Below the pieces are notes generated by a model that had not been told where the DNA came from, did not search any database, and saw only the letters and a program-made list of their open reading frames with translations. Position numbers and translations under genes: made by a program. Below are positions 3,446-48,354 of a stretch of DNA of 64,000 nt, in pieces. How positions within the stretch are numbered: the first letter of the stretch is position 1; the number at the start of each line of letters is the position of its first letter. The DNA is from Lactarius indigo (lineage: Eukaryota; Basidiomycota; Agaricomycetes; Russulales; Russulaceae). The stretch lies in the NCBI GenBank assembly GCA_025766275.1, contig JAFKAC010000044.1, positions 310,001 through 374,000 of the forward strand. The letters are read 5' to 3'.

Positions 3446-5478
3446 CTACAGTCAGATAGAAAAATGTAGGGCGAGTGAAAGAGAGGGTATGCGAGGATTT
3501 TGGGGCATGGGCACAGAGGATGAGGATCGGTCAGAAACAGGCGAGCTGAGAGAAATGCGTAAATAGCTACCGGTGCAGGGCTCTGGATAGCGGGAGACAC
3601 CTCAGTACTGTAGTTGGTAGAGAAAAAAAAAGCGGGGAGGTGTTCGAAGAGGTGGTCGTCTAATTCACTGTGTATATAATATGTCGATGGGGACGGAGTC
3701 CGGCGGCCGTGGCTTCTGTTTCCGCGCGCGACGCGACTTTGTTTGGACCCTTCGAATGGGCAAGCGAATACCCATTTTGGGCACTCTATAATGGTAACTC
3801 ATCTCGAGAAGCTTCGAGTTGGGTGTACATGTATGCAAAGGTAACAAGGAGATGTACTATCAGCCAAGGCAGTACTCGGATATTGTGATTAACGGGCCGT
3901 GCCATCGGTCTCCCTCCAGTGTATACTTCACTTTGTGCATTATGTATTATTGGATGCCAGTGGCTCCAGATTGTCTCACCGCTTGAGGTATCATTTGGAT
4001 ATCACTGTCTCCACATAGAGTACACTTAATGGTGCAAACTTCTGGCCGGACTCACAGTATCTGCGTTCCACTCATCGTGCATCGCTTGCCACTTACTCTT
4101 GCATACCACGCTCATCCAACTCTCAGTATGAACACGAAGGCCCATTTGAGAGTGTTCTTGATCGATAACATCACCGCCATCGTGGTCTCTTTATTGGCGG
4201 CTCCAAACCAATCGATGTAACAATATGCCTGCAGCGCTCGCACGAACTCTCGTGCGTGTGCGGACAGGATGAGGAAGGTCAGTTCCTCACAGCGTCACCT
4301 ACTCAAGCTGATTCGCGAGCGGCCAAACAAAACCCCAGATACGTTCCTACGCATGGCACTCACGAGTGTCCTGTACATGGAGGAAATAGACCCCGACATG
4401 CCCAATTAGACATGCACCGACCTACCCCCCTTCTCCTGTCCTTTCTCTCAACCCATACATCTGACAGGGTGCTTCGAAGACAGAGCTTCACGGAGATTGC
4501 AAAACCCAATGCGGTTCATCTCACGCAGCTTCCTGGTGCTGACCTCAAAAGGGCCACCAGGCTCGACCACGGGTTTGAGAACCCTTCCACATGAGCATGG
4601 CCGGCGGTCCACTTCCCGCTGCCACTGTGTGTTCCGAATCTGTATCTACCTCTTTGAATGTCAAGATCTGTGCACTCAGTGGTCATGCGGGCAAGTGATA
4701 GCAGAAGATGCAGAGAAGGCGACAGCTGAAGCGTGAGCGGATGAATGAATAGGGAAGAACGCAGTCTAGGATATCGAGTTCGATCGCATACATCGTACAT
4801 GGCACAATTAGTACACAATTTGTGGGCCATTCAATAATAAATCTATTTATCTTTCCTTGCAGTGTCCCTCCAACTCCGGTATGAAGATAAACTTGCACGG
4901 GGATATTGATACCCAGAACAGTGTAAACTAACGATCTCGTCTATGCAACTGTGGTTCCGATCGAAGACTGAGACTGCACTAAAGGCTTGAGGAGATATCA
5001 TCTCAACAAATATAAGAACAAACGAACCAAATCAGTGGCCATAATAAAGGCTGCAAATGACTCGTCGGAATGCTCTCGAGAAGAAGCAGTAAGGTGTTGT
5101 CGAATCTTTGTGTCAATATTTGCCTCCTGATAGTCAACCTCCGAGTGGGTTAAAGCTGATTCAGGCGGCATGTTTGAGAGGCGTAAGAAGGTGGCGTGCT
5201 TCAAGATGAGGATAACAGCTTTGACGAAACATTAAATAGACGCTAGAAATAATAAAGTGAAATACCAAGGATCAAATGATAATTGGGGCCCAAACCGGTG
5301 GCCGTAAGCTAGAGAGATAAAAATCATAAGCCAGGGGTAGATGAGTGTAATACGAAGAGAACACATTTTGAATGGCAGGCAATGACAAAATCTGCATCAC
5401 CTGATGGACAAGTGAGATTTTTGGTCGAGTGAACATGCGGAGAGCACCTACAAACTGGAGAACTAGAGATGAACACCA
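3446..5478. other. About 2 kb with no recognised gene
   Basis: Only short ORFs without recognisable domains occur here. The plus strand at 4256-4594 has a moderately open reading frame containing RQSFTEIAKPNAVHLTQLPG that could be an exon remnant, but I do not know its family. A stretch near 3735-3790 resembles 80-150 at the window start, suggesting an old duplication. The end of the GTPase gene is placed at 5479. Confidence 0.35.
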
Positions 5479-8400
5479 TTAGCGGGCCAGAAGGGAGTAT
5501 GCACGCACGTGCTAGTTGATCAGGGATGAGTACAATGAATGGAGAGTCAAAGACAGGCATGATCAACAGGCAAAAAACGCAAAAAAGTAAACAGCAACTC
5601 ACATCCTGACAATCCGAGGGCGAGAGCTGTCAGCAGGGGCGTAACACAGCGAGCCCCGGCAGCTACTCACTTTCTGGAGAGCCAAGAACAGCTGTCGTCG
5701 GCAGGGCAAAACATAACGAGCCACGGCAGACACTCACCGACTGGAGAGTCGAGGACAGCTGTTGTCAGCAGGCTCAAGACATGGAGACATGGGAGCCACT
5801 CACATTCTGGAGTGCCGAGGACAGGTGTCATCAGCAGGGTCGAAACACCACGAACCACGGCAGTACTCACATCCTGGAGAGCCGAGGACAGACGTCATCA
5901 GCAGGCCCTGAACACAGTGAGCCACGGCAGCCACTCACATTCTGGGGAGCCGAGAATATCCGTCGTCAGCAAATTCGAAACACAGCGAACCACGGCAGCC
6001 ACTCACTTTCTGGAGGGCCAAGGACGGGTGTTGTCAGCGGGGTGGAAGCACTGCGAGCCAAGGCAGCCACTCACCCACTGGAGCACCGAGGACAGATGTC
6101 ATCAGCAGGCACAAGACACGGAGACATGGGAGCCACTCACTCCCTGGAGCAGAGGACATCCGTCATCAACAAGCTTGAAACACAACAAGTCACGGTAGCC
6201 ACTCACCAACTGGAGGGACGAGGACAGGTGTTGTCAGCGGGGTTGAAAAAGAGGGAGCAGCAGCAGCTACTCACCCACTGGAGAGCCGAGGACGTCCTTA
6301 GCAGGCTCAAAACACGGAGATATGAGAACCACTCACCTCCTGGAGGGCCGAGGACATCCATCGTCAGCAGGCTCGAAACACAGCGAGCCACGGCAACCAC
6401 TCACCAACTGGAGAGCCAAGGACAGGCGTCATCAGTAGGCTCGGAACAGAGCGAGACACGGCAGCTACTCACTTCCTGGAGGTAGGACAGGTATTGTCAG
6501 TGGGCTCAAAAAGAGTGAGGGGCGGCAGTCACTCACCCACTGCAAAGCCAAGGACAGACGTCGTCAGCAGGCCCAAGACAGACATGGGAGCCACTCACTT
6601 CCTGGAGGGCCGGGGACATCTGTCGTCAGCAGGCTTGAAACACAGCGAGCAACGGTAGCCACTCACCGACTAGAGAATGAAGACAGGTGTTGTCAGTGGG
6701 CTCGAAAAAAAGCGAGCCATGACAGCCACTCACCAACTGGAGAGCCGAGGACATGCGTAGTCAGCGGGCTCAAGTCACGGAGACACGGGAGCCACTCGCC
6801 TCCTGGGGGGCCAAGGACAGCCATTGTCAACAGGCTTGAGACACAGCGAGCCATGGTAGTCACTCACCAACTGGAAAGCCAAGAATATGTATAGTCAGCA
6901 GGCTCAAGACACGGAGACATGGAAGCCACTCACTTCCTGAAGGGCCGAGGACATCCATCGTCAGCAGGGTCAAAAAACAGCCAGCCACGGCAGCCACCCA
7001 CTTCCTGGAGGGGCGAGAACAGGTGTTTTCAGCAGGCTTAAAAAAGAGTGAGCTATGGCTACTTACATCCTGGAGAGCCGAGGACAGGCGTCGTCAGCAG
7101 GCTCAAAACGAGTGAGCCATGGTAGCCACTCACCGACTGAACAGCAGAGGACAGACATTGTCATCAGGCTTCGAAACATACCATGCCACGACAGCCACTC
7201 ACTCTCTGAACGGCCAAGGACAGCTGTTGTCAGCAGGCTTCAAAACACAGCAAACCACGGTAGTCGCTCACAGTCTGGAGTACAGTGCGCCAACATGGTC
7301 AGGTTCGTTGATCTCGAAACTGTAAGTAAGAGCTGACACTCACCCACTAGTAGTTAGGCAGTGTCAATGATCACGAATCCCGCACCACAATTTAATACTA
7401 TCAACACTTACCCAGATGTATGGAAACGATATAAGACATCTCCGAACTATTTGTTCGGCCTCCATGTCAACCTGGGAATGGGTACTGCAATGCTCGTTGT
7501 CATTGTCGCTCATATTGCCCTTCCATTGGCATACTCACCGCTTCAAAGCTGCTTTAACACTCAATTCTAAGTTACCTCCCTGCACTGCCAACAGCATCAA
7601 TCCGACGACGTCGTCATTTAAAGCTGCAGCTGTCATCTCAATAAGCTTATCGCAGCCCACACTTTGCTTGTGCATTTCTGCCAAAAAAATATTAGCATAT
7701 AACCCCGGTACTTGTCTCTAAACCCACTTTCTAATCGCACGAATCTAACACCATCATCAAGTGCGCGCAAGTAGTGTTCTTCAAACTGTTTCTCAGCCAC
7801 TTCAGATACATTGTCATCTGGGCTTCCGAAATCCTCCACGTAGATTTGCACATTCCGCTGGAATTGATCATATTTTGTAAACACAGCAACAACAGGGACT
7901 GGAACCTTGTTAATACATTCACGGACGTCCATAATGACGTACCATTCCCGTCAGGACAGATGTCCTGGAAATATTTGAGATCAAGCCGTGGTCGTTGGTT
8001 GTCCATTGGGACGCAGTACCTCAAAATAATATGACCGTCAGTTGGCATAATCGTGAACACTCGAGAGTCCTAACCATATCGCATGCAATCTGTCTGCCAG
8101 TCGCCTTTCTCCACACTTGCGTCGAATGAAATCGTTCAAAATTCCGAGTTCCTCCCTGCTACCAGACTCAATACCGCGAGAGTCGTGGAAAACATAGCCC
8201 TTATGATTGGAGAATACGAGTTCGTCGTCGATTCTGTGCTCGCCTCGCTGGCTTCATGGTTAAGACGACCGAAGAGAATACTACTATCACTCACATCCAT
8301 GGACGGGTCGAGTCTAACCTGGTCGGCAGTGAGATCACGTTCGCAGACAAAAATGGTGGACTACATACCCTCCTCCCTCGCCTATAAATGATGGGACTCT

Positions 8401-9060
8401 CTGTCGTTTCGCATATTCTCTTAAGGATTGACGTCTTTCCTGCGTTTGCCCTTCCTATAATAAGCACACGGAACTGGAATTCTGGAATTCGACTATGGGG
8501 TTGCTGTGTGTCCATTGGAGCAATGGTGTTTGGAAAGGTAGCTTGAGGGTCAAGAACACGAGTGACGTCTGCCGACTATAGGAGGAATTCAACAGCTTTC
8601 TGGCACCAGAAAACAATTAAAGACCTACCGATTTGGATTTTGTGTAAACGAAAGTCACGGTAACCCGATGGTTGCTATCTATGAAGCTGCTCAGTGAGAA
8701 GCGGATCGTATTGGAAGGAAAGGCACCACCACCTTCCAGACGGACAACCTTGTCGTCTCCGAACTTATATGGCTTAAACTCGACAGAAACCTTAGCGACC
8801 CTTATTTTGAACAGCGCCCGCTGGATGGTCAACGTAGCACTTGCGTGGGTCTTAACATAGCTATGCGGAATAAATTAGCACTCGATGGTGAGGGAAAAAT
8901 CACGGCTAATGACACAAACATGTCGGAGTCCCAACGAACAAGGTCGCCGTTCTTGAATTTGTTAGACCTGTGTGTGATACCAGCGTCGTCCTTGAAAACA
9001 AGCTCGAGGTCGGATAGTATAGGAGGTGCCTTGATAAAATCGACAGATATTTCTACGCCA
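5479..9060 (-). CDS. P-loop GTPase with C2-like N-terminus and micro-exon tail
   Basis: Exons read on the minus strand: 9060-8914, 8860-8629, 8575-8369, 8318-8295, 8247-8075, 8019-7943, 7898-7728, 7677-7539 and 7471-7412. Then come 27 three-base exons from 7346 down to 5603 and a last exon 5511-5479 ending in TAA. Each junction keeps the frame and has GT/AG ends (one GC donor). Exons 1-2 resemble a small beta-rich C2-like domain. Exon 3 holds the Walker A motif GRANAGKTSIL, exon 5 the Walker B/switch II region YVFHDSRG, and exon 7 the G4-type base-specificity motif TKYD. KMHKQSVGCDKLIEMTAAAL and RCLISFPYIW follow, typical of a large, poorly studied basidiomycete family of GTP-binding proteins. 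The first exon above 9060 was not found. If the intron after FPYIW is retained, a stop follows about 17 codons later, so a short isoform is possible. The main exons are well supported. The micro-exon tail is inferred from splice-site geometry only. Confidence 0.75.
5597..7349 (-). repeat. Array of ~27 intron-like ~67-bp units split by 3-nt spacers
   Basis: The period is 62-71 bp (mostly 66-68). On the minus strand every unit begins GTGAGT (variants GTAAGT, GTGGGT, and one GCGAGT whose GC lies at 6798-6799). It carries CTGAC/CTGAT or a close relative about 23 nt before its end, and finishes in CAG or TAG. Between the AG of one unit and the GT of the next there are always exactly three bases. 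On the minus strand the triplets are TGG x4, TTG x4, GAA x4, GAT x3, TCG x3, GAG x2, AAA x2, AAT x2, and ACT, AGA and GGA once each; none is a stop. The unit interior tolerates indels and substitutions, but the two splice dinucleotides are kept at all 27 sites. Examples of triplet positions: 7344-7346, 7272-7274, 7203-7205, 7134-7136, 7067-7069, 7002-7004, 6800-6802, 5603-5605. The last unit has lost its acceptor and appears to use a downstream AG at 5512-5513. Confidence 0.9.
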
Positions 9061-10599
9061 CTGTATCAGTTCTTCCGAGAAGCAATGGTAGGTTCTATAT
9101 ACGTTTCAAATGAATAACTCTATTCACGAATCGGTCAGTCTATGCTCGGTGAAAGGAAGCTGTTCGAACTAACTGAGCTTGATAGTCCACATCGGTTGCA
9201 GATCTTGAGTTAGATTCCATCCAAAAATATAAGTAATCTCGTTGTTGAAGTTTGGGGTGGTGAAGAACTCTGATGAAGTAAGATGGATGTGTGCCAGCGA
9301 ACGACGGTTGGAGGCAGATAGAGTCGTGACACGTGACGCGTGACTTGAGTTACACGGACGGTGTCATGAGCTTGTTGAGGCTGAGCGCTGAGCAATTCTG
9401 TTCCAACTTCTCCTTTATGACAGCATGCCCGGAACTGCAAACTCCCGTCGACTTGCTGATGATGCTAGATAGTCGACCATGCCGTTTGGCCTGACTTGCA
9501 GCCATTGGTGTTTCTCTGAAGAATCAAGAAGTACCCAACCTTTCTCAGCATCAGAAACAGTCGCTCAACGACATCCCCCTTGCGAATCTCTCAACAACAC
9601 GCAAAAAACAAGCCCACCCCTCAAATGAAGTAAGCACCCAATTTTCTTTGCTCGGTACCTCAGTCAAGCTCAGAACTCGAAATGGATTCAGGTGTCCACT
9701 GGCCCAATCTCAGGGTCAGCAACGCAGAGAAAGAGTGCACAATTCTCTCCATATTGCTCGCTGACCTGGCCACTGATCAGTTCTGCCCAATGTCTGCCAC
9801 ATGACCCACGTCGTGAAGACACGATGATGTTAAGCCTAAACTCCTGTCGCTCCGTAGCTAGTGACTTTCCCCTCCGGCATGACGAAGAAGCAGTTGTAGT
9901 AGCAGTTCTACATCCACGAGCTCACAACCGTATTGGTCGTTCTTGACACACATAGTCTGGCTGGGCGTCGCAGCTGACCAGTCGGGGAGGATGTGAGTGG
10001 GCGCGAGACGGAAGGCAAGCGGTTAGGTTTGGGCTCAATAATATTGGTACGTACCTTCCGTCCCCATGTATATCCCTTCTTTTTTGAATTCTTGGTGCTG
10101 CGTGAGAATCCACATAACTGGCTGAAGCTCTTCCGCCCCATGACCCTAGCGTTATACTCCTGCTCCTGGCCCGTTACGAGCACACGTATCACCTTTGGCA
10201 CTGCACCAACTCACTCCTCCGTCTTCACATGGTATATAGGCTGAGTGGGGGCACAGACGGTCTCATTATGATTATATCAGCTAGAATGCGTGATGTATCC
10301 ATTGTCACCGTTCGAGCTGGTTCCGATGGACGGAAGTCAAGTCGATTGGGTTGGGTCAAAACTATTTACGGCGCAATACAGTAATGTATATGAGCTCTTC
10401 GACAAAACTATAAACAGCTATAATGTGAGGATATCGGGACGGCAGCGGTATGTGGTGACCCACACCCTTCTCTTTAAAGAAAAGAGGTCTAAGTCGTAAC
10501 GAGTGTGGCGATCGAATGAGAGAGATATGCCACATATAAAGACATCTAGAAAAGAAAAGAAAAGAAAAACGAGCATACATAGATTTAATTCACGCTTAA
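9061..10599. other. GTPase upstream region; no other gene recognised
   Basis: This should contain the promoter and first exon of the GTPase gene, which I could not place. A minus-strand open frame at 9908-10201 with a GTACGT that could be a donor near 10055 has no recognisable domain. Nothing else stands out. Confidence 0.3.
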
Positions 10600-15867: not shown

Positions 15868-18800
15868 TTAAGGGTCGACGTCCGTGTTGGCCAATGTATC
15901 CACATGATGAGCTTGCCAAGGTAAGGATGCGTATATAAGAGCCGCTATTTTTCTAGGCGCGCCCGGGTTTGAGGAGTGGAACTCCTTAACCGCATCGGGG
16001 GCGTGTGCTAGGTTCTTAGCCGGTTCCCATGTATCCTCACCCTCACCGTATCCTTTCCAACGGACGAGGTACTTAAGAGTACGACCAAAGAGTTTAGAAT
16101 CTCTAATATGGTCAACTTCATACTCTTCTTCTCCCTCGACTGTTACTGGATCGGGTGGTGGAGGTGTAAGCCCATTGACTTCGTTTCCTTTATAAGGAGA
16201 GAGGCAATCTACATGAAATACATCATGGATCCATAATGCAGGGGGTAGTGCAAGCTTATAGTCGACGTCACTTATGACTCTAGTGACTTCAAATGGGCCT
16301 AATTGCCTAGGTCCTAATTTGGACGACTGTTGATGTATCTTTATCTGTTTAGCTTGCAACCAGACTTTATCCCCGACGTTAAAGGAGTATGGCTTAGTCC
16401 TTTGTTCAACGTCTGTCTGCATTCGCCTTTTACTTAGGCATAGAGCCGCCTCTGCATCCTTGCGAGCGGAAACTAAGTGCTGAAGGCACTTATCGAGCAA
16501 CGGAATACCCGTAGGTCTACCAGCAGGAATAGTGAAGTCAGGCATAAAGCCATATAGTAGCTCAAAGGGGGTATGACCCGTGGCCAAGTTGAGTCTACTG
16601 TTGACTACGAATTCTGCTGTAGGAAGCAGGTCTGCCCAATCATCTTGTCTCTTGCTAATGAACATGCGCAGATATATTTCAACTTCTTGATTTTTGCGCT
16701 CGACCTGTCCATTAGCTTGAGGGTGATAGGCTGTAGTAAGACCTGCGTCTATTCCAAGTCGCTTATAAAGGGCATGCATACTTCGCGCTGCAAATTGGGG
16801 TCCTCTATCGCTTATAACCTTGCGAGGGATCCCATGCAGGGGGAAGACTTGCTCAAAGTAGATGGATGCCACCCCGTCAGCCGTTATCTGAGAAGTTACG
16901 GGGAACAGATGGATCTGCTTGGTATAATGATCTACAATGTTTAAGATCATATCCTTCCCATGTGACATAGGCAGTGGACCGATCAGATCGATCCCAACCA
17001 TCTGCCAAGGTCCCTCAGGTACTTCTTGCGGCTGAATGGTTGCTTTGGGGTGTAGATCTTTGCGATAACGTTGGCATCGATCACATCCTTCTACGTATGA
17101 GGCGATAAAGCTTGACATGCGTGGCCACCAATAATAGTGACTAACTAGCTCTATGGTTCCATTCTTTCCAGGGTGTCCGGTAGTGACCGAGTCGTGGCAA
17201 GACTTTACCACGTCCCTGCGAAGGGCACGATCATTTGGGACATATAAATTACCCCGGTGGTAGACGAAACCATTTTCTTCTTCCCACATTAAGACGCCAT
17301 CCGTGAGAGCTTTAGGAGCGGTCTTAGATATACTTTTAAGACCCTCTATGACTTCAGCTTCTCTAATGGATGCAAGCTTAATGTGACTCCCTAGGGAATC
17401 TGTTTCAGGGACGAAGTGCGCTTTAGTGGCAGCTAGGAAATGCTCAGGTTTTAATACCTGAACCTGGCGGTTATCTTCAGAATCTCGGACTTGGTCTCGT
17501 GAGAAACGACTTAATGCATCGGCTTGCATAGATTCTCCTTTCTTGTAAGTGATCTTGAAGGCAAACCAACTTAAGAACAAGGCCCATCTAGCTTGGCGCC
17601 TATTTAAGTCTTTCATGGTTGCCCACCATTCCATGTTCTTATGGTCGGTGATCACTTTGAAAGAGATGCCTTCGAGGAAGTGTCTCCAGTCCTCTAAGGC
17701 GTGGATTAAGCCGAGCATTTCTCTGTTGTAAATCTCATAATTGCATTCTTCTCTACTCATAGACTGTGAGCGATACGCAATAGGGTGCCAGAGACCGTCC
17801 GGGTACTTCTGAGTTAAAATACCTCCAGTAGCAAATCCTGAGGCATCTACCTCGACTCTAGTTGGAAGGTTCGGATCGTAAACCTTAAGGATAGGTTCTT
17901 GTACGAAACGTTCCTTCAACAGGTCAAAGGCTTTTTGCTGTTCAGACTGCCAAGTCCAAGGAGTATCTTTCTTAGTAAGGTCATGAAGGGGACGGGCAAT
18001 GGCTGCGAAGTCCTTGATGAACCTTCTATAGAAATTGGCGAACCCGATGAATGCTCTTACTTCTTTGAGCATAGTTGGGGTTGGCCACTCCTTCACTGCA
18101 GAGACCTTGCCAGGGTCTATCTGCACTTCTCCGGGATGGATGATCATCCCAAGGTACTCCATTTCTTGCTTCTCAAAATCGCATTTCTCAGGTTTGAGAT
18201 AAAGGTCGTGTTGCTCTAACCTTGTTAACACCTCGCGTACAATTTTGCGATGATGTTCGAGGTTATTGCTATAGATGAGAATGTCATCCATATATACAGT
18301 GACCTCGCCTTGCGCGATAAGATCAGCAAAGACGGCGTTCATTAAGGCTTGGAAGGTGGTGGGGCTATTGGTCATGCCGAAGTACATGACTTTTGGTTCG
18401 TATAGACCCCTATTGGTGACAATGGCAACTTTCCATTCATTGCCTTCTTTGATGCAGATGTTATGATATCCCCATCGAACGTCGAACTTAGTGAAGTACT
18501 GAGCTCCCTTAAGCCTATTAATAATATCTGCAGCGAGTGGAAGTGGATATCGGTTCTTAATGGTGATTTTATTAAGATGTTGATAATCCTGGACTAGACA
18601 GAGCTTTCCGTCCTTTTTCTTGATGAAGAACACAGGGGATGCCATAGGTGACTTAGATGGCACTAAATATCCTTTCCCTATGTGTTCATCTAGGAATTTA
18701 TCCAGTTCTACTTGCTCGCTGGGTGACATGGGGTACATCTTGACCTTCCAGTGTTTTACTGAATCTGGTTCCAGGTCTATGGCGTGGTCCCATGGCTGAT

Positions 18801-19757
18801 GTTCAGGGAGTCTCTGGGATTCTTCCTCAGAGAAGACTTTTGCGAAGTCACGGTAGTGTTCAGGAACCATTTCTTCGAAGGTCTTTTTAGGTTTGGAGGT
18901 TATGACTTTCTCGGCAATCTGTTGAGAGTACGTAAAACCGGCCAAACAGAAGACTTCGTCAGAGACGGTGTCCAACACTTTCTCCGCAAGGAGACGGTGG
19001 CGTTCCATACGGTTAGCCATAATGCGCGTCACCTCTATCTCTATCTCCGGTGCAGCTATTTCAGTGCTGGAGTTGAGACGCATAGTGCCTTCCTGCCAAT
19101 CTATGTGCGGGTTCCGATGTCTAAGCCAAGGCAGTCCCAATATTACTCGTTCTGGGCCTAGTGACGTGACCATAAAGTCGAACTTTTCTGCGCTAGGACC
19201 GACTTTGAGGATGAGTGTTACTTTATGGGTAATACTGCCGGCTTCGTTGAGCGTCCCGTCTATGTTATAGAGGGTGATGGGATGCTCCAACAGAACTTGC
19301 AACATCTTGTGGCAGTCAGCGTACTTCTTGTCCAGGAACAACGAAGTTGCTCCGGAATCTACCATGGCTGCTACTTTTACAGTACGATGATGTCCTTGTA
19401 GTTCAACAGAAATATGAAAATGAGATCTGCTATCTTTTGTTTCGGGAATAATACATGAAGAAAGCACTGCATCAGAAATCATCACTTGCGGCGCTGCTAC
19501 AAATTGTGGAGCAATCGGAACACTAATATTATTGTTCATCTCCGAGGCAGATGTAGATGTAGAATCAGAACAGGAAGCCGAGACATCACTACTATCAACA
19601 TTACAGGCAGAAACGAAGTGGTACGTAGGAATTACAGATTGGTCCAAGTCCGAAACGAGGCGAGATCGTAGGCATATCTTACAACTACACAAGGCCGAGT
19701 CAACCATATCTGTTTTACAGGGGGAGTCCGCAGCTATGACTACCCCTGGATCTAAAA
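15868..19757 (-). CDS. pol: Element A Pol polyprotein
   Basis: Open for about 1290 codons. The first ATG is at 19707, but the frame opens at the gag stop in the -1 frame, so Pol is probably made as Gag-Pol. Counting from that ATG: aspartic protease DSGA near 117-120; reverse transcriptase with FDVRWGYHN near 408 and YMDD at 472-475; RNase H EVDAS near 619; integrase zinc finger with H838, H845, C875 and C878; integrase catalytic D907, D967 and E1003; C-terminal chromodomain LKYLVRWKGYGEGEDTWEPA near 1220. The chromodomain places it in the chromoviruses, which target heterochromatin. Part of the active site is slightly unusual: CIKEGNEWKVAIVT replaces the common KAAFKT. No lesion was seen, and the stop is 13 nt before the 3' LTR. 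Confidence 0.93.
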
Positions 19758-20981
19758 AGCCGCCTTAAGAGCGTTGATTTGCTCTTGCTGGGCTGTGAGC
19801 GCCGCCAATAACTTTGCCACGTCTGCCTGGGACGTATTGGCTTTGGGCGGTGCAGAAATACTTGTTTGGGCGGTGGAAGCCGCTGACTGACTGGAAGAAG
19901 GTTGAGAGGGGGTCTCCTCACTACTGGCCGCAGCTTTCGCTTTGGTGGGTTTCCCCATGAATTTGAGCATGCAGATGGGTGCCCTATGTCCGACCTTTTG
20001 ACAATGGTGGCATACGTCGCGATCGTGGTTTCCATCCTTCTTTGAGTGGTCCTTAGAACCACACCCGTAACACTTGCCTTGCATGTGTTTTTGATAGTCC
20101 TGCCAGGTCTTTCCGCCGGATGCGGGCTTGCTCGTGCTGGATCCCTGCTGATGTGATGCGTCAACTTGCATCGTGTCTGGATCGGACGGCTTGCCTGCAG
20201 GCAAGATCGACTGGCTGGACGAACCGCCCTTCTTCTCCGAGTCCCTCTGTCTCAGTCGCTGATCTAGCGACTGTGAGACCTGTTTGAGGTCGTCGAAGTC
20301 GGCGTGGGCCTTGTCCGTCAAGGCGAGAGCGTCTTTCACACGGTCCGAGAGACCATCATAAAAGTGGGTGCGGAGGTCTGCTTTTGACCATCCAGTTTGT
20401 CCAGAGTATTGTTTGAACACGGACCGGTACTCTGCAACCGATCCACGGCCCTGTTTTGTCTTCTTCAGCTGCTCCCTCACTGTCTCCGTGGTGTCGAGGG
20501 GCGAGAACCGTCGGTTAAACTCTTTGACGAATTTGTCCCAAGAACTACCGAACGGGATTTTGTTTTGCTGAAGTTGCTCAAGGTAGGGGAGAGCCCATGA
20601 CTTGGCTTCCCCTTCCATGAGGTTAAGAACCGCCATAATCCAGCGGTCTTCTGCCTGGAAGTACATGCCCTGGGCCGGGTCCCAGGTATTCATAGCATCC
20701 TGCTGTGAGCCTGCCCAATTATGGAAGGCTGCAAGGAAGTGACGGGCATCTGTAGAGTTGCCTTTCCCATCCCAGGCTTTGGGATGGGCCACTACTTCCT
20801 TGTGCTTAGGGCTGGGCTTGGCCGCGGTTGCTGAAACCTGTGCGGTCAAATCCGTGACCTTTTGTGTGAGTATGCTGACTACTTGGCCCAAATTGCTTAT
20901 GAGGCGCAAGCAGTCATTAAGAGTTGGGGGCGGAGCAGGAGCTGTTGGTGTGGTGGGAGCGGCGGCAGCGGCGGCGGACAT
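19752..20981 (-). CDS. gag: Element A Gag
   Basis: 409 codons from ATG 20981 to TAG 19752. An Ala/Pro-rich start is followed by a retrotransposon Gag core with WAGSQQDAMNTW and FVKEFNRRFSPLDTTETVRE. Two zinc-knuckle-like motifs follow near residue 320: CYGCGSKDHSKKD, which lacks the last Cys, and a complete CHHCQKVGHRAPIC. Gag coats the RNA and forms the particle. The frame stays open and strongly charged for about 90 codons upstream of this ATG (KEEKEWIKNFDNWDDFDEDK), overlapping ORF1 in a +1 relation. The true Gag may therefore start by another route. Confidence 0.9.
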   Translation of the reverse strand: MSAAAAAAPTTPTAPAPPPTLNDCLRLISNLGQVVSILTQKVTDLTAQVSATAAKPSPKHKEVVAHPKAWDGKGNSTDARHFLAAFHNWAGSQQDAMNTWDPAQGMYFQAEDRWIMAVLNLMEGEAKSWALPYLEQLQQNKIPFGSSWDKFVKEFNRRFSPLDTTETVREQLKKTKQGRGSVAEYRSVFKQYSGQTGWSKADLRTHFYDGLSDRVKDALALTDKAHADFDDLKQVSQSLDQRLRQRDSEKKGGSSSQSILPAGKPSDPDTMQVDASHQQGSSTSKPASGGKTWQDYQKHMQGKCYGCGSKDHSKKDGNHDRDVCHHCQKVGHRAPICMLKFMGKPTKAKAAASSEETPSQPSSSQSAASTAQTSISAPPKANTSQADVAKLLAALTAQQEQINALKAAF

Positions 20982-26600: not shown

Positions 26601-28050
26601 CTAAGTACGGAACAAAGGAAAGTACAAAGGTGTTATACAATGCAGAGTCCGGATGTATGATGTCATAGAAGTACAATGATGTCATATGTGATGCAATGAT
26701 AAGTCCAGATTGTACAGATCAAATAATATCTAATCTACAAGTCCTGTATATCTAATCTAAAGCAGTCCATGCTGCAAGTTCAGTCCGTATGAGCTGCTAA
26801 GTGCGCAAGGGTCACTTATCAACACGTTGCCTTCACGGATACAGATATTGTTGTACCCCCAACAAATATCCAACTTGGTAAAATAACGTGCGTTGTGAAG
26901 TTTGTCAATTAACTCAGGAATAAGGGGTAGGGGCGCCGCGTTTTTGATCATAATGTTGTTCAGGGCCCGGTAGTCTTGTACTGGTTGGAGTTTTCCATCC
27001 TTCTTGTCTACAAAGAAGAAGAGGGAAGCCATGGGGGACTTGGATGGTTGGATGTAACCTTTTCGTAGGTGCTTGGAAATGTACTCCTTGAGTGCGTCCA
27101 CCTCTTTAGGCGTGAGTCGATAGATGCCACAATTCTTCATAGTGGCTCCAGGTTTCAGATCAATTGTGTGATCCCAGGGTTGATGTTCAGGTAGGCGGTG
27201 AGAGGCATTCTCACTAAAGACTCAGGTGTATCGTTGGAAATGACTCGGGATGTGCTCGGAGGAAGGTTTAGGTGTGGTCTTTGCAGCTATCTTGGTACTT
27301 GTAGTTATTTTGGCTCGGATTGCAAGGTGATCATACTTGCAGAAGCTGTGACTCCACAGCCAGGGTTCGTAGGCTTCTTGGATGAACACGCGTTTGACAG
27401 GTTCTATCTCTTCGATAGTCAGGAGGCAAGCTCTTGTTGTGTCTTTGGGTCCTAGCTCTAGGATGTTTATCGTAGTATTCCTTGTTTGAGGGACTTGGGA
27501 AGAAATAATGACACTCATCGTTGACAGAGTACAGGTTTTCGGGCATCTTGTAAATGCTATCTTGGGTTGATGCCAATCAATTTCCGGGTTATGTGCTCGG
27601 AGCCAATCCATTCCTAGGATTATATTGTGCTCCCCAAGGGTGGTGGCATATAGCTCTACCGTTTTGTCATGATAAGCATCTTCCACTGTTCTAATCCGTA
27701 GTCTCTGGATCATGGTGTACTTGACCAAACCCATCTTATTGGGTGACCCATCCACGTTTCTAACTGGTAAGGGTCGGATTAGTGTTCTCATTGTTAGCCC
27801 ATTTGCATGTGCAAACCCATTATCCACGATAATGCCCTCCACACCACTGTCCAACAGGGTGCAGGCACTGATTTCTCTGCCAGACTTCTTTCCTACTAGT
27901 GTCACCTTGAGAATGATTGAAGGAGCTCTCCTATTCTGAATCATCTCTACAGGTACAGGCTTGGCTCCGAGCGTTTCTAGTAGGGAAAGGCCGTGTACAA
28001 CGCTACTGGCATGAATACTTCCAATCGACAGTGCTGCAATGGAAGAGCCT
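23652..28050 (-). pseudogene. pol: Element B Pol, broken by a solo LTR and four TGA stops
   Basis: Domains in order on the minus strand: protease CTLLDSG (around 27860); reverse transcriptase with KLDICWGYNN, split at 26824/26200 by the solo LTR and resuming KAAFKTSLGLFEPTVMTFSL, then VYLDDILIF; RNase H LITDASDFATG; integrase HHCC and core (TMDFITDLPSS, ISDRGPQFASK); chromodomain LYLIKWKGYPNSENSWLPA. Stops are TGA at 24606-24608, 24669-24671, 25350-25352 and 27222-27224 (forward coordinates). Each sits where related Pols have CGA-type Arg (for example VVD*LSKAVV, RYT*VFSEN). Pol opens in the -1 frame at the gag stop. It cannot make a full protein. Confidence 0.88.
26200..26824. mobile_element. 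Solo LTR inside element B reverse transcriptase
   Basis: A 625-bp unit TGATAAACAG...TATCAACA splits the RT codons of REGDEHKAAF. The duplicated target is CGTCG (26195-26199) and CGTTG (26825-26829), one C-to-T apart. Internally, TGGCACACAACAGTGAGGAA occurs twice about 55 bp apart. The family is not represented by a full element here. Confidence 0.85.
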
Positions 28051-29653
28051 AAAAATCCTCATTAATAGGCACTGAACGCAGATGTGCATCTGGGTCGTAA
28101 GGTAGTATCTCTCGATACATTGCCCCTATACTCGCGGGGTGGTCAGCAGGTACTTCCTCCTGACCATCTTCATCAACAAAGGCACCTTGTGCCCTAACGT
28201 TGTTGTTGGATTGGCCTCTTTTGGCCTTCATTGCCATTGTCTTTGCTAGGCATTCCTTGAGGATGTGGCCTGGCTTGCCACAGTATAGACAGAGTTTGTT
28301 CTTGAATCGGTGGTCGTGCTCTTCCTTTGTGAGCCTTCCATGGAATTTACTCGGACGGGATGAAGAAGCATTGATGTTAATGCTGTCATCTTCCATCAGG
28401 ACTGCTCGGCCTGAAGCAGATTTCTGGGACTTGTTGTACTGGTTGATAGCGTGACCCACGTAAACTCGATAGACGTGATCAAACTCCCTCGCTTTCTCTA
28501 CAAGGTCGTCGAAGGTAGTGGGCAAGGGGGATATGCCAAGCAACTTCATGTTCAAGGCGGTTGGAATTGCCTGCCGGAAAGCATACATCTTTGTTTGCTC
28601 ATTGGCGCCACTTCGTTGGGCATGAGTGGACCACTCTTGGAACCACTTGTTGAACGGACGAGCGCCCATCTTCAGGGTGTACATCTTGTTTGTGGCTTCC
28701 ATAGCTGTATGGGCAGGAACGAAGTGTTTGTTAAAGTTGGATTTGAACGTTGCCCACATTCCAAAGGTAACGGCGGCTCTGCCAGTCGGGTTTAAGGCTT
28801 TCTTTTGCCTATCCTGGGCCCACTTGCCCGCAGAGGTGCCCACCTTAAAGTAGGTAAGGGCCGTGGAAATCTTCTTATCATCGGTGTCAAAGATGGAACT
28901 GTTCAGGTGGAAATAATTTGCCAAATTATTCCAGAAAGCTTCTGCTTTATCAGGCTTTCCATCAAAGGGTTCAGGTGCTGCTCCTAGGATCTTTGCGGGA
29001 GCGGGTGCTGCCATGGTTATACTTGGAGGTGGGACAGATGCAGGGGGTACAGAGGCTCTTGGAGAAACTGTTGCACTGACAGTGACAGGTGACGATGGAA
29101 GTCGAGGAGGAGGTGTCGGGAATGGCAGACGACTTGGACCAGGGGTACTAGGGGAAACTCGAGGGGAGGATGGTCGGGAGGTTACTTGGGAAAGTAAGCT
29201 GGAAAGGGTCCTAGTAGTACTTTCTAGGATCTGAGAAACTTCAGCTATGTCGCTGTCAGAGTTGGGGGATTTGTCTTTAGTCGGGGTTGTGAACTCTTCG
29301 CTCTCGGGTGGCTCTTCCAAGTCAGAAAATCGAACCTTTCAATTGTTGTTGTACGTCCAAAGCTCTTTGACGAAGTTCCAGCAGACTATTTTTCTGCGAT
29401 AGGTGCCATGTAATGTGTCATAATCAAGGTCCTCAACCTTGTCAATATCTGGATAGACTCTTTTGAGGTCTTCAAATAATATGTGTTCTTGGGTTTCAAC
29501 CTTTGTCCAAGGGTGTTTTCCAGTGGGACTAGTGATGTCTTGTCCTTCCCACTGAGCGTGATAAAAGTTGTTGTTGTCAGAAAAGAAGGTACTGTGGAAA
29601 TATACAGGAATGCAGGCTTTCTCTTGTTCTGTAAGAGGTCGCTGTGTACTCAT
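28049..29653 (-). pseudogene. gag: Element B Gag with one TGA stop
   Basis: Starts MSTQRPLTEQEK at 29653 and runs in one frame to TAG 28049, interrupted by TGA at 29339-29341 (NNN*KVRF, consistent with former CGA). The N-terminal ~100 residues have no recognised domain. Then comes a Ser/Pro/Thr-rich linker, the Gag core (EPFDGKPDKAEAFWNNLANY, FNKHFVPAHTAMEATNKM) and a CCHC knuckle CLYCGKPGHILKEC. The gag stop overlaps a run of five T read in the -1 frame by pol. The start ATG overlaps the stop of the upstream ORF as ATGA. Confidence 0.85.
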
Positions 29654-35056: not shown

Positions 35057-38000
35057 ACCCATTGGCCTGGGTGAGGGCAGTAAATTGTAACAGTGTAATC
35101 ATGACTCGCTATCGTTCTATGAGAGTTCCAGTATCGATTCGCACAAGTTACACAATGGCCGACATACGAGCACTAGTCGACAGTGGGGCAACACACTGCT
35201 TCATGAAACCCTCGTTCGCAAAAAGAATGGGACTAGGGACTAAATTACTCGACATTCCAAAGAAAATATGGAATATAGACAACACTGAAAACAAGTCGGG
35301 GCGTATCACTCATTATACCGATGTAGACGTCCAAACTAAAGGAATCCATAAGGAAATTCGTTTCCTCATTACAGACATCGGCAACGAAGACATTGTACTA
35401 GGATACCCCTGGCTCGCCATTTACGACCCACACATCAAATGGTCGCAAGCCGCCATACACGAAGACATGCTCCCCATCATTATCCGATCAACAAATCCCT
35501 ACCTTAAAACAACGCCGGTCGTCGCGACTACTACCGTCCAGGACGACGATTACGAAGTAATACACTCTTGTGTTATCACAGATGAACAGCGGCAACAATT
35601 TGAAGAGGGATGCTACATCCGCGCAACCGCTACTGAACTTGCCATTGCTGCTCAACAATATGTTACCAAAGCTGAGTTACCACCCGAATATCGCGAGTTT
35701 GAATGCCTCTTCAGTGAAGAAGCATCGGACAGGTTTCCACCAAGCAGGCCTTGGGATCACGCTATCGAATTCAAACCAGGGACAGCCGACGCAATTGACT
35801 GTAAGATATACCCTATGACTCAAGAAGAGGACAAGAAACTACGTGAATGGATCGACGAACAACTTAAGAAGGGATATATATGACCCTCCAAGTCTCCATA
35901 CGCCTCGTCCTTCTTTTTCATTAAAAAGAAGGACGGAAAGTTACGACCCATCCAAGACTATCGGAAAATCAACGCAGTCACCATCCGCAATCAATACCCA
36001 CTCCCTCTTATCTCCGACCTCATTACTGACCTTAGCAATGCCCACATCTACACCAAACTTGATGTTAGATGGGGGTACAATAACATACGTATCAAGGAGG
36101 GAGATGAAGAAAAGGCGGCGTTCAAAACACGTTATGGACTATTCGAACCAACGGTGATGTTTTTTGGCCTAACTAACTCTCCAGCAACGTTCCAGACGAT
36201 GATGAATTTCATCTTCAGGGATATTATCGCAAAACACGAAAAGCGGGGCACCGTTATTCGCGTCTACATGGACGACATCGGCATTGCTACTGGACTCAAT
36301 CATTCACTGCCAGACCACATCGAGGCTGTCAAAGATGTACTTCGCGTGTCTGCAGAACATGATTTATACTACAAACTCAAAAAATGCCTTTTTCATTCAC
36401 CACGCATGGATTACCTGGGGGTAATCCTTGAAAAGGGGGTGACACGCATGGACCCCATCAAAATTTCGGGCATTAAAGATTGGCCTACGCCAACCAAGGT
36501 TAAGGACGTCCGCTCTTTTCTCGGTTTTTGCAATTTTTACCGACCATTCATACGAGGTTTCACAACCAAAGCACGACCTCTTAACAAACTCACGCGCAAA
36601 GACACCAAGTGGCACTGGGGAACGGAAGAAGAAAAGGCGTTTCAGGATCTCAAAACCCTTGTCACTAGCAAACCCGTTCTCGCACACCCAGACCTTACCC
36701 AACAGTTCGAGCTAGAGGTTGACGCATCCGGGTTTGCCACTGGGGCCGTTCTCCTTCAGCGCAAAACAGACGGCAAGCAGCATCCCATCGGCTACTACTC
36801 GTCCACCCTTAATGAAGCTGAGCGAAATTACGACATCTACGACCTCGAACTCCTAGCAATCGTCAAAGCTTTTCGCCACTGGAGACCCCTTCTAGCGGGA
36901 TCCCCCCACAAGATCAAAGTATTCTCAGACCACCTCAATTTACAATACTGGAAGTCGCCACAGAAAATTAGCAGGCGTGTAGCCAGGGAAGTACTCGAAC
37001 TCTTGGAATACGACTTCGAGATTCACCACATCAAAGGCACTTCCAACGGATGCGCCGACACGTTATCACGAAGACCAGACTATGACCAAGGAGAAAACGA
37101 TAACAAAGGGGTCACTGTACTACCAGCGAGCGTCTTTGCACGCGCTACCACACTGGAAGAACCACGACACCTGCACTGGAGGCCCGAGATCTTACCAGTG
37201 GAGATGACCCCAGAACATCCCATTTACGAACAAGACATAGCTAAGTTAAAACCTTGGATCGACGCTCACAAGCTAAAAGATATCGAAGGGACATGGTACA
37301 AAGATGGGCGCCGAGTGGTCACTGGTGGCATCCACGACAAACGCACTATTATTGCCGCTCACCATGACTCCCCTGTCTACAGCCATCCGGGTATTAAACA
37401 CACCCTTCAACTCACTGAGCGACACTATTGGTGGCCGCAGATGAAGAATGACGTCATGGACTATGTCAAAGGTTGCGCAGAATGCCAGCGGCACAAAGTC
37501 AACCTCCATCCCATTAGGGCGCCTTTACAGCCTATCTACCCCAAACCAGAAGCTCTGCCATTCAAAACCATCGCAGTGGACTTTATTACCAAACTCCCCA
37601 TTTCTTGTGGTTATGACTCTATTCTCACAATAACAGATCACGACTGCACCAAGGCTGCTGTCTTCATTCCTTGCAATGAAGAGATAACGGCTGAAGGAAC
37701 GGCCGCCTTGTACGTCTCCCACATCTTTCCGCGATTTGGACTCCCCTCACACGTTATCAGTGATCGAGATCCCCGCTTCGCATCCAAGTTCATGCGGGAG
37801 ATATGCAAAATCCTTGGCATCAGCCAAAATATCTCAACCGCCTATCATCCTAGAACCGACAGCCAATCAGAACGGACAAACCAATGGCTGGAACAATATC
37901 TCCGTTTCTGGGTAAATGAACGACAAGATGACTGGGTCCGTTATCTGCCTATGGCAGAATTCATGCACAACAACTGGCCTAACGAAACCACGTGAGAGTC

Positions 38001-39201
38001 CCCTTTCTTCCTCTTATCAGGGTTCAATCCTCGCACTGATTGGACCGATAGACCCTCTTCTATCCCACAAGTATCCCTGAGGCTAGACCAATTCAAGCAG
38101 GCACGACAGCATGCATTCTCATGCATGCTCAGGGCACAGAAGTCATGGGTCAAACACAAAGATATGCCCAAATTCAAGGAAGGCGATCTCGTGTGGCTTG
38201 AGGGACGCCACTTATGCATGCACCAACCAACCGCAAAACTAGCGGCCAAACGACATGGACCATTTAAGGTCATCCAGGTGATGTCCCCTGTCAACTATCG
38301 CCTTGAACTTCCCACGCAGTGGAGCATCCACGATGTGTTCCACATAGACCTTCTCACGCCTTATCGCGAAACACCCACGCACGGACCAAACTATCAGCGC
38401 CCACCACCTGATTTGGTCGATAACGAAGAAGAATACAAGGTCGAGAAGATTCTAGACTCTCGGCGATTCGGCAGAAGACGTCGACTCCAATACCTCGTGA
38501 AATGGAAGGGGTATCCTGACTCAGACAATCAGTGGATAGATAAGGATGACATATTTGCCAACGAAGCCGTTCGGGAGTTCAAACATTCTAATCCCAACCG
38601 AGAAACACATATAAGGGTGACCTCTTGTCGTGATAAGTCCCCATCTCCCATTCACTCCATGTCCTCTACTCAACGCAATGACCAGCTCGCACTCCTCTCT
38701 ACCCTCGTCAACGACTCCTCCACCACGCTTGTCGACCCCGACTCCGCCGACAACACCACAACCATTGGAGCTGCAAGTAGAGGCCATGCCTCCATGCAGC
38801 ATGAGGAAGACGGCCCTATCACTAGTGAAGAACTGCACCAGACATTGCAACGATTCCCTGTGCCCATACAGGGAACTCTCGACGATGATCCAGCAGCAAC
38901 TCAACCAACACCTCCGCCAATGCACGCCCTTACAAACCCCAACACCGGTGAGCCCGAAGTCTTCCTCACCGAAGACGAGCTCTTTCGGCTTCAAGCAGCT
39001 GTCCTGCGCGGTGAAGCCACTGGAAGCCATGAAGAAATACGAACAAGAATGGAAAGAGACGGTGGCACGGTGGCAGCAGGAGCAACTGCATATTGCCACC
39101 TGCTGGCACCGGATGATGAAGGAGCGGAGGGAGTATTGGACGAAGATGAGGATGAAGACGAGCTTAGAGACCACTACCCCAATAAGGCACGCATTCCTTA
39201 A
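35041..39201 (+). pseudogene. pol: Element D Pol with two TGA stops
   Basis: -1 frame relative to gag. Order: protease LVDSGATHCFM (about 35173); reverse transcriptase KLDVRWGYNN and VYMDDIGIA (about 36267); RNase H EVDASGFATGAV; integrase zinc finger HHDSPVYSHPG...CAECQ; core AVDFITKLP, ISDRDPRFAS, HPRTDSQSER; chromodomain LQYLVKWKGYPDSDNQWID; then a long low-complexity acidic tail. TGA at 35881-35883 (GYI*PSKSPYASS) and 37993-37995 (NETT*ESPF) interrupt it; the sister elements have Arg at these sites. The last ~170 bases overlap ORF3 in another frame. Confidence 0.88.
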
Positions 39202-42120: not shown

Positions 42121-44173
42121 GTGGCCGTAACAACAAGAGATCAGTGGACAAGTTTCCGTCCTTATTCGATTCCAAGAAGAGGAGAACGTAACGTCCCTAC
42201 GTGCTTTCTACAAGCAGCCAGTTGGAGGGAACGACAAGAAGAAACCGGGTATTTCGTAGAATTTAATTTCGTAGAATTTAACGGACCTATGAGGTTCCGA
42301 CCAGTTGAGTTCAACTTCGATCACCTGTGTTGGACAGAGGTTACGTGGAACCCCATAGACTCTCAGTGGGACGTCATACGACCGGCAGGGCCAAGATATC
42401 ACTGTGATATTGATGCACGAGAGCTCAATAGCAGAGCAGACTGGGGACCGATTGATGGGCAATTACAAGAACATACGACCGGAGAAGCCGTGTCTGAAAG
42501 AACAGAAGACAAAGACAAAGACGGACGACAGCCAGACCAAACCGAGAGTAGTGGAGGAGCGGTACAAGACCTGCTTATCGAACGAGCTGAGTCTGCCTAC
42601 ATCACAGAGCCAGAACCTATTCACATACAATCACCAGCCATTATGGCCACAATAACACAAGCAATGGAAGAAGTCGCGTTGGAAGAATCACGTGCGATAC
42701 GAGCAGAGGCAAGAGAAATACTGATGCCTATCAACCCGGATACGGGAATGCGAATGACAGCGGATGACACCGCCATATTCCAAGCAATAGGGTCCGATAG
42801 AGGTGACCCCCCATCCGGAAGACAACTAGCGTTAGAACTACCGCCAGGCATAGGAGGACCAGGCTATGACCCACCACCACCACCAGGAGGAGGAGTCCCC
42901 TTTGATTTACGAAGAACTGAACCACCGCAAAGACCGCTGGCTGGACCACCAGGTGGAGGTGGAGGAGGTGGCGGAGGAGGTGGCGGAGGAGGAGACGCCA
43001 GGGCAGGAGGGCATCACAGCGAGAAACTCACCAGCGAGCCCCCTTCAGTTTTTGATGGAGACAGACTCAAAGTGGACCAGTTTTTGACACAGTGGCACAT
43101 CTACTGGGGGCATGAATTTGGACGCCCCCATCATGCGAAACGACTATAGGAGATGCCTCCTATTTCTATCCTACATCAAGGGCGGAGCAGTCAGCGAATG
43201 GGTCCTATCCTTCCTGAACTGGCTCAACAGGCAAATACAATGAGGAATCAGCCCCTACACTCAGGGACTATGGGAAGCCGTAGCCGATGGCTTCAGCCAG
43301 CGATTCGAAAATACACTGGAACGAGAACAAGCCCAAGCCATATTACGAAAGGGCTTCAAGATGATGGGAGAAGACATTGACAAGTACGTCAATGATTTTG
43401 AGCAGCTCGCACGGAAGGCTCATTACCGCCTCAATGAACCGCAAACCATCGACCTTTTTACATCGGGGTTGCCCAAGGAACTGTTCAAAAACGCATTTCA
43501 GTTCAACAACCCAATCACGTTCGACGATTGGAAGAGGGCCATCCTCAAGTGGCAAAAGAATTATATACACCTCAAGGCGAGGCTCAACGAATACAAGAAT
43601 ACGTCGACACCACCAAAGAAGCAGAGTGGCAACGCCGGATGGACACTTCCGCAAAATTTACCACAAACCAACCTGTGGGCGATGGACACGTCCGCAGACC
43701 GTGCCAAGGTGAGACTTGCAGGGTCCAAAGACATCGACTTCAACAAGTTGCCCCATATGTGGTCCCCACCTCTGTTTCCGCCTAGGGGAGGACCCGGAGC
43801 TAGGGGGCAAGGACGAGGAGGATCTCGAAGGGACCTAAGGAACGTCCTCTGTTATAACTGCAATGCTCCAGGGCATCTCTCACGAAATTGCCCACACCCG
43901 CGACAGTGGCGGAACGCTCCCTCCAGCAGCAGGATGACCGAAACTACATGGTACCCTCAAGGGCCAGTATCGCAATACGAACCATCACTACCCGGCTACG
44001 CGTCGCCACCGGTCAGCGCAACACCTGCACCACAGATCAACGCGGCCACCACCACGAAAACCGCCGGAGAGCAAGCGAAGGAATGGCTTATGCAGGTGGC
44101 CAACAGCACGGACGAGGTGAAAGACCTCATACTCCAAGATCTGTGGGGAAAGGAGGGTTTTCAGGATGCCTGA
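42121..44173 (+). pseudogene. gag: Element C Gag, frameshifted, starts at GTG
   Basis: Same layout as element D Gag: TRDQWTSFRPYSIPRRGERN domain, poly-Gly linker (about 42950-42995), Gag core, and CCHC knuckle CYNCNAPGHLSRNC near 43853. The codon aligned with the ATG of D is GTG. A 15-bp tandem duplication (FVEFNFVEFN) lies near 42255. One extra base near 43108 shifts the frame (YWGHEFGR instead of YWGMNLDA), and TGA at 43241-43243 replaces Arg (RQIQ*GIS). The ORF ends GFQDA after GGGTTTT at 44155-44161. Confidence 0.88.
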
Positions 44174-47800: not shown

Positions 47801-47805
47801 CATGC

Positions 47806-48325: not shown

Positions 48326-48354
48326 TCACCCTCTCTTCAGCGTGAGACCCTGAC

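Follow-up and report, generated by a model that had tools for sequence, protein, structure and literature searches.

Exons no longer than a single codon have been described in the ascomycete truffle Tuber melanosporum, whose NACHT-ANK genes contain tens to dozens of codon-sized (3-bp) microexons that are alternatively spliced, according to the available parts of four papers (PMC4986451, PMC3689799, PMC9815663, PMC10197012), all of which credit these microexons to Iotti et al. (2012, Fungal Biol 116:261-275). Here we describe a comparable arrangement in the basidiomycete Lactarius indigo, in a stretch of 64,000 nucleotides (NCBI GenBank assembly GCA_025766275.1, contig JAFKAC010000044.1, positions 310,001 to 374,000; hereafter the window), where 27 predicted single-codon exons follow one another on the minus strand (5597..7349), inside a gene for a GTPase protein. 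A first-pass annotation of this DNA, which proposed the array from the letters alone, knew of no described gene with such an architecture; the truffle genes are a precedent, and arrays of single-codon exons are therefore not new in kind.

As far as the truffle system is described in those parts, the likeness lies in the tens of 3-bp exons, the expanded fungal family and the diversification of a presumed recognition region. The truffle protein is a NACHT-ANK receptor, whereas the Lactarius protein is a GTPase, and Pfam detected no NACHT or ankyrin domain in the window protein or in its relatives P0002, P0124, P0127, P0132 and P0056. In the truffle it is the C-terminal recognition domain that is diversified, by alternative splicing, whereas the Lactarius array is internal and has a conserved domain after it. 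Regarding alternative splicing, intron retention was seen in five transcript-like proteins, with no skipping shown. Exchange of codons at the DNA level, which we infer for Lactarius, goes without mention for the truffle in the available parts of the citing papers.

Other described systems are more distant. The available texts report a 1-nt exon in Arabidopsis (PMC4674806) and a 3-bp micro-exon in Drosophila homothorax (PMC7392893), which are likewise spliced exons of 1-3 nucleotides (nt), but single ones, compared with dozens in a row in Lactarius. The hypervariable repeats of fungal NOD-like receptors (NLRs) are highly alike, undergo reshuffling and have few variable positions under positive selection, as stated in the part available of PMC9815663, whose reference list names the WD-repeat HNWD family. 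In those arrays the repeat is the protein itself, whereas in Lactarius the repeat is the intron and each unit holds three coding bases. Schistosome micro-exon genes have many tiny symmetric exons of several codons, and are not known to have near-identical introns around single codons. A literature search gave no description of arrays of single-codon exons in Lactarius, with bioRxiv and most subscription journals outside its coverage. As far as the literature searched shows, the new elements are the occurrence in a basidiomycete, the GTPase, the internal position, the approximately 40 copies and the evidence for an exchange of codons over conserved introns.

A string of predicted single-codon exons within a GTPase gene

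On the minus strand, from 7346 to 5603, each of 27 three-base pieces is preceded by an acceptor (CAG in 25, TAG in two) and followed by a donor (GT in 26, GC in one), and the 27 introns between the FPYIW exon and the final codon of this series measure 59-69 nt. The array is a tandem repeat of approximately 68 bp, and of the 29 array introns in the window gene model, 24 have a CTRAY branch-like site at 10-45 nt before their 3' end. Both the exact three-base spacing of complete introns and the splice signals noticed in the first-pass annotation were recovered. The core of its reading, an array spelled out one codon at a time, is supported, but 27 is not the full count, since the gene model adds the codons CAC and TTT, whose boundaries are less certain, for a total of 29 single-codon exons in a row. 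The predicted residue string between FPYIW and VMQILSLPAIQN is WTRSDEELELSEWELEWLGWKNDNSKDHF.

The array had been described as continuing the exon chain of an upstream GTPase gene, and the gene model agrees: its 39 exons give an intact open frame of 1161 nt (387 amino acids), and all 38 introns are GT/GC-AG. This model extends from the GTPase to the C-terminal domain exon, exclusive of the N-terminal exons and the final exon. Three ordinary exon boundaries were set through relatives, one from other loci and two from annotated or transcript-like proteins, so at those places, though not in the array, the open frame is fitted to the expected protein. The suggestion that the gene ends in a short exon with a stop (5511-5479) was wrong, since the gene continues into a conserved C-terminal domain encoded by three or more normal exons. 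The array is thus internal rather than the tail of the protein, and the idea of a terminal tail was discarded on account of this domain, whose hydrophobic helix reads AVILILKHAT in the window. In the other direction, the N-terminal domain of annotated Lactarius relatives shows tblastn similarity at 9053-8913 and 8868-8623.

Distribution of the arrays in the L. indigo genome

The genome searched comprises 90.3 Mb, and the window is part of contig C231 (473,168 bases). A search with the window array gave at least 109 matches in approximately 40 clusters. The genome carries at least 40 such arrays, some of them perhaps alleles; L016/L033/L035, L031/L037 and L030/L034/L041 are near-identical and may be alleles or recent duplicates. 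Thirty-nine loci were analysed, namely the window and 38 more (L009-L046), with long flanks for 21 of them (the window and L009-L028). Chains of fewer than six units were dropped, the remnants L048 and L049 were excluded from all counts, and eight near-duplicate loci were excluded from the composition count and kept in the others.

When donor and acceptor profiles trained on all units were scanned separately, the next donor was found exactly 3 nt past the acceptor in 1530 of 1532 cases (41 array spans at the 39 loci), the exceptions being 4 and 6 nt. Profiles trained on the window array gave the same distance in 893/893 cases in the window and 20 other loci, with an intron length of 65 nt in 744 of the 893. 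Across the genome, 997 places match the exact context CCAG-NNN-GTGAGTGGCT, compared with none for a reversed control. A chance origin of the three-base spacing is excluded. The number of codons chained per locus ranges from 13 to 73.

All 21 flanked loci have the GTPase upstream on the same strand, with the match extending to FPYIW in 17, and the conserved C-terminal domain with its hydrophobic helix downstream. Genome-wide, the GTPase and the C-terminal domain have 49 matches each; 41 GTPases have a same-strand C-terminal match within 8 kb, and 39/39 arrays are located between the members of such pairs. The pairs on C1 and C175 are beyond the 39 array loci. Eight GTPase copies (C223:7230, C231:213541, C223:501003, C231:432376, C36:107618, C223:147757, C268:110920 and C223:316629) lack a C-terminal match in the 8 kb that follow them downstream and may be array-less relatives or fragments.

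A far relative, L047 (C1:1970900-1977600), has an array from a different intron family, with 65 units and no stops, in which the acceptor-donor distance is 3 in 64/66 cases and 0 and 8 in the other two. It is the most divergent gene copy read, with another codon vocabulary (TTT, AAA, TGT, AAC) and a hydrophobic, cysteine-rich middle part, VLLVCLCFCPIPCCLCNC. L048 and L049 are remnant-like, with short arrays, no good GTPase match in the fetched stretches, C-terminal matches that contain stops and, in L049, acceptors judged by eye to be broken; they may illustrate the decay of an array without constraint.

Coding constraints on the three-base exons

None of the 1554 three-base exons (41 chains, 39 loci) is TAA, TAG or TGA, although approximately 12% would be expected from composition. 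Without near-duplicates, position-wise composition predicts 149 stops in 1218 codons, a crude null because the codon vocabulary is restricted. The 997 exact-context units genome-wide also contain no TAA or TAG and no TGA. Codons ending in AG are avoided, since an AG at the exon end would be a second acceptor: the NAG:NAA ratio is 10:330 in the arrays and 418:464 in flanking exons (p 1e-60, near-duplicate loci included). Synonymous changes account for 8 of the 13 single-base codon differences between near-identical arrays, against an expected fraction of 0.32 (p 0.028). We know of no simpler reason for these constraints than that each codon is included and translated. Stop avoidance, the intact frame, NAG avoidance and the transcript-like proteins described below all favour the earlier proposal of a protein written codon by codon.

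In the arrays (window and L009-L046), many amino acids are written almost always with the same codon (GAA, AGA, GAT, TTG, GGA, TAT, AAA, CAA, GCA and ATA). NNC (except TTC), CGN, GTN and CTT are rare or absent in the arrays and freely used in flanking exons.

Divergence of codons and introns

Of the 63 columns of the aligned unit, the three codon positions are the least conserved, with 0.15-0.24 bits, compared with 0.5-2.0 bits for intron columns. Mean intron identity within arrays ranges from 67 to 95%: L026, L027, L029, L032, L038 and L042 are young arrays (93-95% identity, 5-8 codon types), and the window (73.5%) and L031 (67%) are old ones. Within a locus (window, L009-L028), introns with 0-2 mismatches share their flanking codon in 16-28% of pairs, and introns with at least 16 mismatches in 3-23%, mostly 5-10%.

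The clearest comparison is between L029 and L042, whose introns differ at 10 of 2598 bases, while 6 of 40 codons differ, four of them by two or three bases, and whole units are inserted or deleted. At 3 of these 6 codon differences both flanking introns are identical between the arrays, and the same codon with identical 25+25-nt flanks is found elsewhere in the array for 3/6 (L042) and 5/6 (L029). L028 and L043, whose introns diverge by 0.7%, show one codon that differs in all three bases. The proportion of differing codons was 31/62 in L023/L024 (intron divergence 3.5%), 31/43 in L022/L025 (3.4%), 24/40 in L013/L017 (4.5%) and 9/21 in L011/L018 (3.8%), although the alignment prefers like introns and some paired units may therefore not be true counterparts. 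L026/L027 and L032/L038 were left uncounted for their weak position homology. These differences suggest that the codons move between near-identical introns through gain and loss of units and through short exchanges, very fast in some arrays.

The variation is also visible in proteins: P0125 and P0139 are the same in 108 of 112 residues before the variable segment and in 14 after it, and differ inside.

Transcript-like and annotated proteins

With the GTPase as query, 1151 relatives were obtained; among the 120 listed, 117 are from Lactarius and three from Joint Genome Institute (JGI) contigs. In a follow-up search, 31 new sequences and P0123 were read, and P0154-P0156 and P0158-P0198 were scanned by pattern. 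Environmental contigs of 0.9-1.9 kb encode proteins that are unbroken across places where L. indigo has introns, and their small size and absent introns suggest that they are spliced transcripts.

Seventeen proteins (contigs of 0.9-1.55 kb) carry 24-45 variable residues at the position of the array; in them the variable part is preceded by FPYIW and followed by (P)MTKHIMxLxTIQN, or by near forms of these, the end of the segment being a fixed cut before TIQN. Sixteen of the 17 enter the C-terminal domain, crossing the places of the two ordinary introns that come next in L. indigo. Coverage of the GTPase among them is uneven, since P0152 begins at FPYIW and P0132 includes approximately 200 residues. 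In composition, the variable parts resemble the L. indigo array codons (Jensen-Shannon divergence 0.066) more than they do the remaining sequence of these proteins (0.163).

Ten more proteins end within the segment, five of them in the reading of an array intron. In phase 0 such an intron reads VSGCCGSLCFEPADDGCPRLS, starting with VSG in 1282 of 1513 L. indigo array introns. P0048 reads into the first array intron, and the other four do so after 3-18 joined codons: P0107 (LFEEEGDTFIE-VSGCNGLI), P0150 (VWKDKDFYEDDKDFNEEY-VSGHDALLQF), P0114 (FFFN-VIGCCALLCFKPVDGTCHWISS) and P0145 (WEF-VSGCSG). Joined codons followed by a retained intron are what would be left by stepwise splicing of single-codon exons. 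The first-pass annotation had counted transcripts that end in or retain the first array intron as evidence against its proposal; this is seen in part, with P0048 reading into the first intron and the other four into a later one, beside 17 proteins with the whole variable segment, 16 of which continue into the C-terminal domain. Among the proteins that end inside the segment, P0147, from an environmental contig, has a lysine-rich stretch past FPYIW, FFKKTINFLKNWNLKKNLNLKKKKTKKKLFRKKIFKKGNKFK; lysine makes up 2% of the L. indigo arrays.

The codon string was recognised in none of the annotated relatives that were read: some stop ahead of the array or within it, others continue into its introns, and others again bridge it. 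A loose pattern for the array-intron reading in the tail was found in 18 of 198 proteins, 14 annotated and four environmental, the annotated ones being from L. sanguifluus, L. hatsudake, L. vividus, L. tabidus and L. pseudohatsudake. The stretch FNPWYFTLSFLESILTPFK of P0056 was considered as a domain and rejected, since comparison with the window showed it to be a misread intron. A search of viral contigs with P0123 gave four stretches that matched a pattern, none of them confirmed. L. indigo probably splices the array as its relatives do.

Protein domains and surroundings of the gene

The GTPase of the window matches MMR_HSR1 (PF01926) with an E value of 1.8e-4 and 22.1 bits (cut-off 21.9); the relatives P0056 and P0002 score 23.0 and 20.9 bits, the latter below the cut-off. 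The Foldseek matches listed are mostly G domains of Ras, G-alpha, Arf and IRGB10, with query-normalised template modelling (TM) scores of 0.22-0.35 for a low-confidence model. The N-terminal domain gives the impression of being C2-like, and this region is strand-rich in the structure model, with low confidence; Pfam gave no C2 match in the relative P0002. The C-terminal part forms high-confidence helices in the structure model of a relative. A search of the PDB at E 0.001 gave no match for that model, whose variable part has low confidence.

Table 1. Features of the array-containing gene in the window.
Feature	Position	Strand	Basis and remarks
N-terminal region, same gene	8623..9220	-	In-frame ATG (MESNSRSATD) at 9220; outside the gene model
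GTPase domain, 7 exons	7412..8515	-	Gene model, Pfam, relatives; ends FPYIW
GTPase exons	8515-8369, 8318-8295, 8247-8075, 8019-7943, 7898-7728, 7677-7539, 7484-7412	-	Gene model
27 single-codon exons (predicted array)	5597..7349	-	Introns of 59-69 nt between; signals and gene model
Array exons 1-9, first base of each	7346, 7274, 7205, 7136, 7069, 7004, 6936, 6870, 6802	-	
Array exons 10-18, first base of each	6736, 6669, 6601, 6539, 6475, 6407, 6339, 6277, 6209	-	
Array exons 19-27, first base of each	6143, 6077, 6009, 5941, 5873, 5806, 5740, 5673, 5605	-	
Additional single-codon exon CAC	5509..5511	-	Gene model; 91-nt intron before; boundary less certain
Additional single-codon exon TTT	5452..5454	-	Gene model; 54-nt intron before; boundary less certain
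First normal exon past the array, VMQILSLPAIQN	5365..5400	-	Gene model; same motif follows the variable segment in transcript-like proteins
Exon LTATGLGPNYHLIL	5266..5308	-	Gene model
Conserved C-terminal domain exon, hydrophobic helix AVILILKHATFLRLSN and further helices	5028..5218	-	tblastn, gene model

The gene sits in repeat-rich DNA. Ten long open reading frames chosen from the 37 of at least 170 amino acids in the window were scanned with Pfam, and 10/10 match domains of the Ty3/gypsy type (reverse transcriptase, integrase, gag, zinc knuckle and chromo), one gag match being below the cut-off. These matches are located at 15868-20981, 28049-29320, 36154-39201, 43361-50694, 54660-56228 and 61058-63835.

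Discussion

We consider it highly probable that the array encodes the variable middle of a protein with an N-terminal domain, a GTPase and a C-terminal domain, written in single-codon exons; the introns would be the scaffold and the codons the payload. Nearly every array intron is a complete, short (approximately 65 nt), branch-point-bearing fungal intron, and would for this reason be recognisable by intron definition. Excision of one intron would add one codon to the upstream exon and keep the next donor, so that splicing could proceed stepwise. Since the unit contributes three exonic bases in phase 0, its gain, loss or exchange would never break the frame to the C-terminal domain. The introns that remain alike within an array would provide a scaffold for homologous recombination, and recombination or short tracts of gene conversion, with selection favouring variety, might add, remove and swap codons among units. 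Recombination as the mover of the codons is suggested by comparison of the arrays; the driver of this movement may be selection, conversion or a dedicated process.

Several observations weigh against this reading or narrow it. Skipping of the whole array would also preserve the frame, and splicing accounts for only the lack of NAG in the restricted codon vocabulary. The N-terminal domain was found in 11 of the 21 flanked loci, and the MMR_HSR1 match of the window GTPase is weak. A codon and its flanking intron are linked weakly, though significantly (excess per bin of -0.4 to 7.2%, in most bins 1-3%, with z reaching 5.5). In L016/L033/L035, L030/L034/L041, L031/L037 and L010/L012/L015 the codons change about as fast as the introns do (ratios of 0 to 1.7; 4.3 for L030/L041, from a single change), so rapid swapping is not universal. 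Regarding the proteins, the short contigs carry no label as cDNA in their source, and no transcript-like protein could be matched to its own genome. P0128, P0129, P0131, P0135, P0151, P0152 and P0157 cover little of the GTPase, and P0139 stops just past TIQN, apparently in a retained ordinary intron. The array introns retained in five proteins indicate that splicing is not always complete, and P0143, P0144, P0146, P0147 and P0153 end inside the segment without explanation. In annotated models of L. tabidus and L. hengduanensis, what leads to the C-terminal domain is a short stretch in which no array codons were recognised; such joining models include P0056, P0085, P0101, P0136-P0138, P0140-P0142, P0148 and P0149.

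Diversity could arise at the RNA level, by alternative inclusion of single-codon exons as in the truffle NACHT-ANK genes, which could coexist with change in the DNA and which we regard as possible but doubtful. Any subset of exons would keep the frame, five transcript-like proteins are partly spliced, and the truffle precedent is given in the available parts of the papers citing Iotti et al. (2012). However, no two proteins were seen whose codon strings agree except for single residues left out, no systematic search for such a pair having been made, and the differences between P0125 and P0139 exceed what skipping would produce.

It appears unlikely that the codons are old and stable and that only the introns are homogenised, by gene conversion or replacement, which would make the hypervariability only apparent. 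This would agree with the four array groups in which codons keep to the intron rate and with the weak linkage of codons to flanking intron bases. It does not agree with L029/L042, in which an intron divergence of 0.4% is accompanied by codon changes of two or three bases and by the gain and loss of whole units, with the three-base change in L028/L043, or with the different segments of P0125 and P0139.

An intronic minisatellite, spliced out whole or unexpressed and with three meaningless bases per unit, is very improbable. The tandem repeat, the frame preserved by removal in one step, and the annotated models P0056, P0085, P0101, P0136-P0138 and P0140-P0142, which join FPYIW to the C-terminal domain without recognisable array codons, would be compatible with it, but the joining stretch of P0056 is a misread intron, and a unit free of coding constraint does not fit the synonymous bias, the 17 proteins with a variable segment at the array position, or the absence of stops (0/1554 and 0/997) and avoidance of NAG, on which the array as junk repeat was rejected. 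Equally improbable are introners, that is, dispersed transposon-like introns inserted between pre-existing codons: near-identical introns between unrelated codons do resemble an insertion burst, but 39/39 arrays are within one gene family, a single isolated exact-context match (C13) was seen among approximately 100 listed of the 997, it is difficult to see why insertions would fall at exactly every third base, and the two intron families (the main one and that of L047) each have their own arrays.

If the array is the coding middle of the protein, the family might be a diversity generator, with approximately 40 GTPase-linked receptors edited one amino acid at a time in a frame-safe manner, independently of the truffle case. 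We consider this about as probable as its opposite; the codons that in some arrays move far faster than the surrounding introns change are part of this idea. Since the family is expanded, its middle is hypervariable and the truffle provides a precedent, our guess, by analogy, is that nonself or biotic partners are what the variable segment recognises.

With the L. indigo arrays, a second and unrelated protein would be known that holds sequence in strings of single-codon exons, and intron read-through in annotated proteins suggests the same system in five or more further species of Lactarius. Such arrays seem to escape current annotation. The joining of dozens of 3-nt exons in order is a hard question for splicing, and the arrays are natural material for testing intron definition and stepwise splicing. 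They suggest that genomes can separate the part that recombines (the introns) from the part that is expressed (one codon), allowing frame-safe diversification residue by residue. The diversity generator, if true, may hint at a wider fungal route to recognition repertoires.

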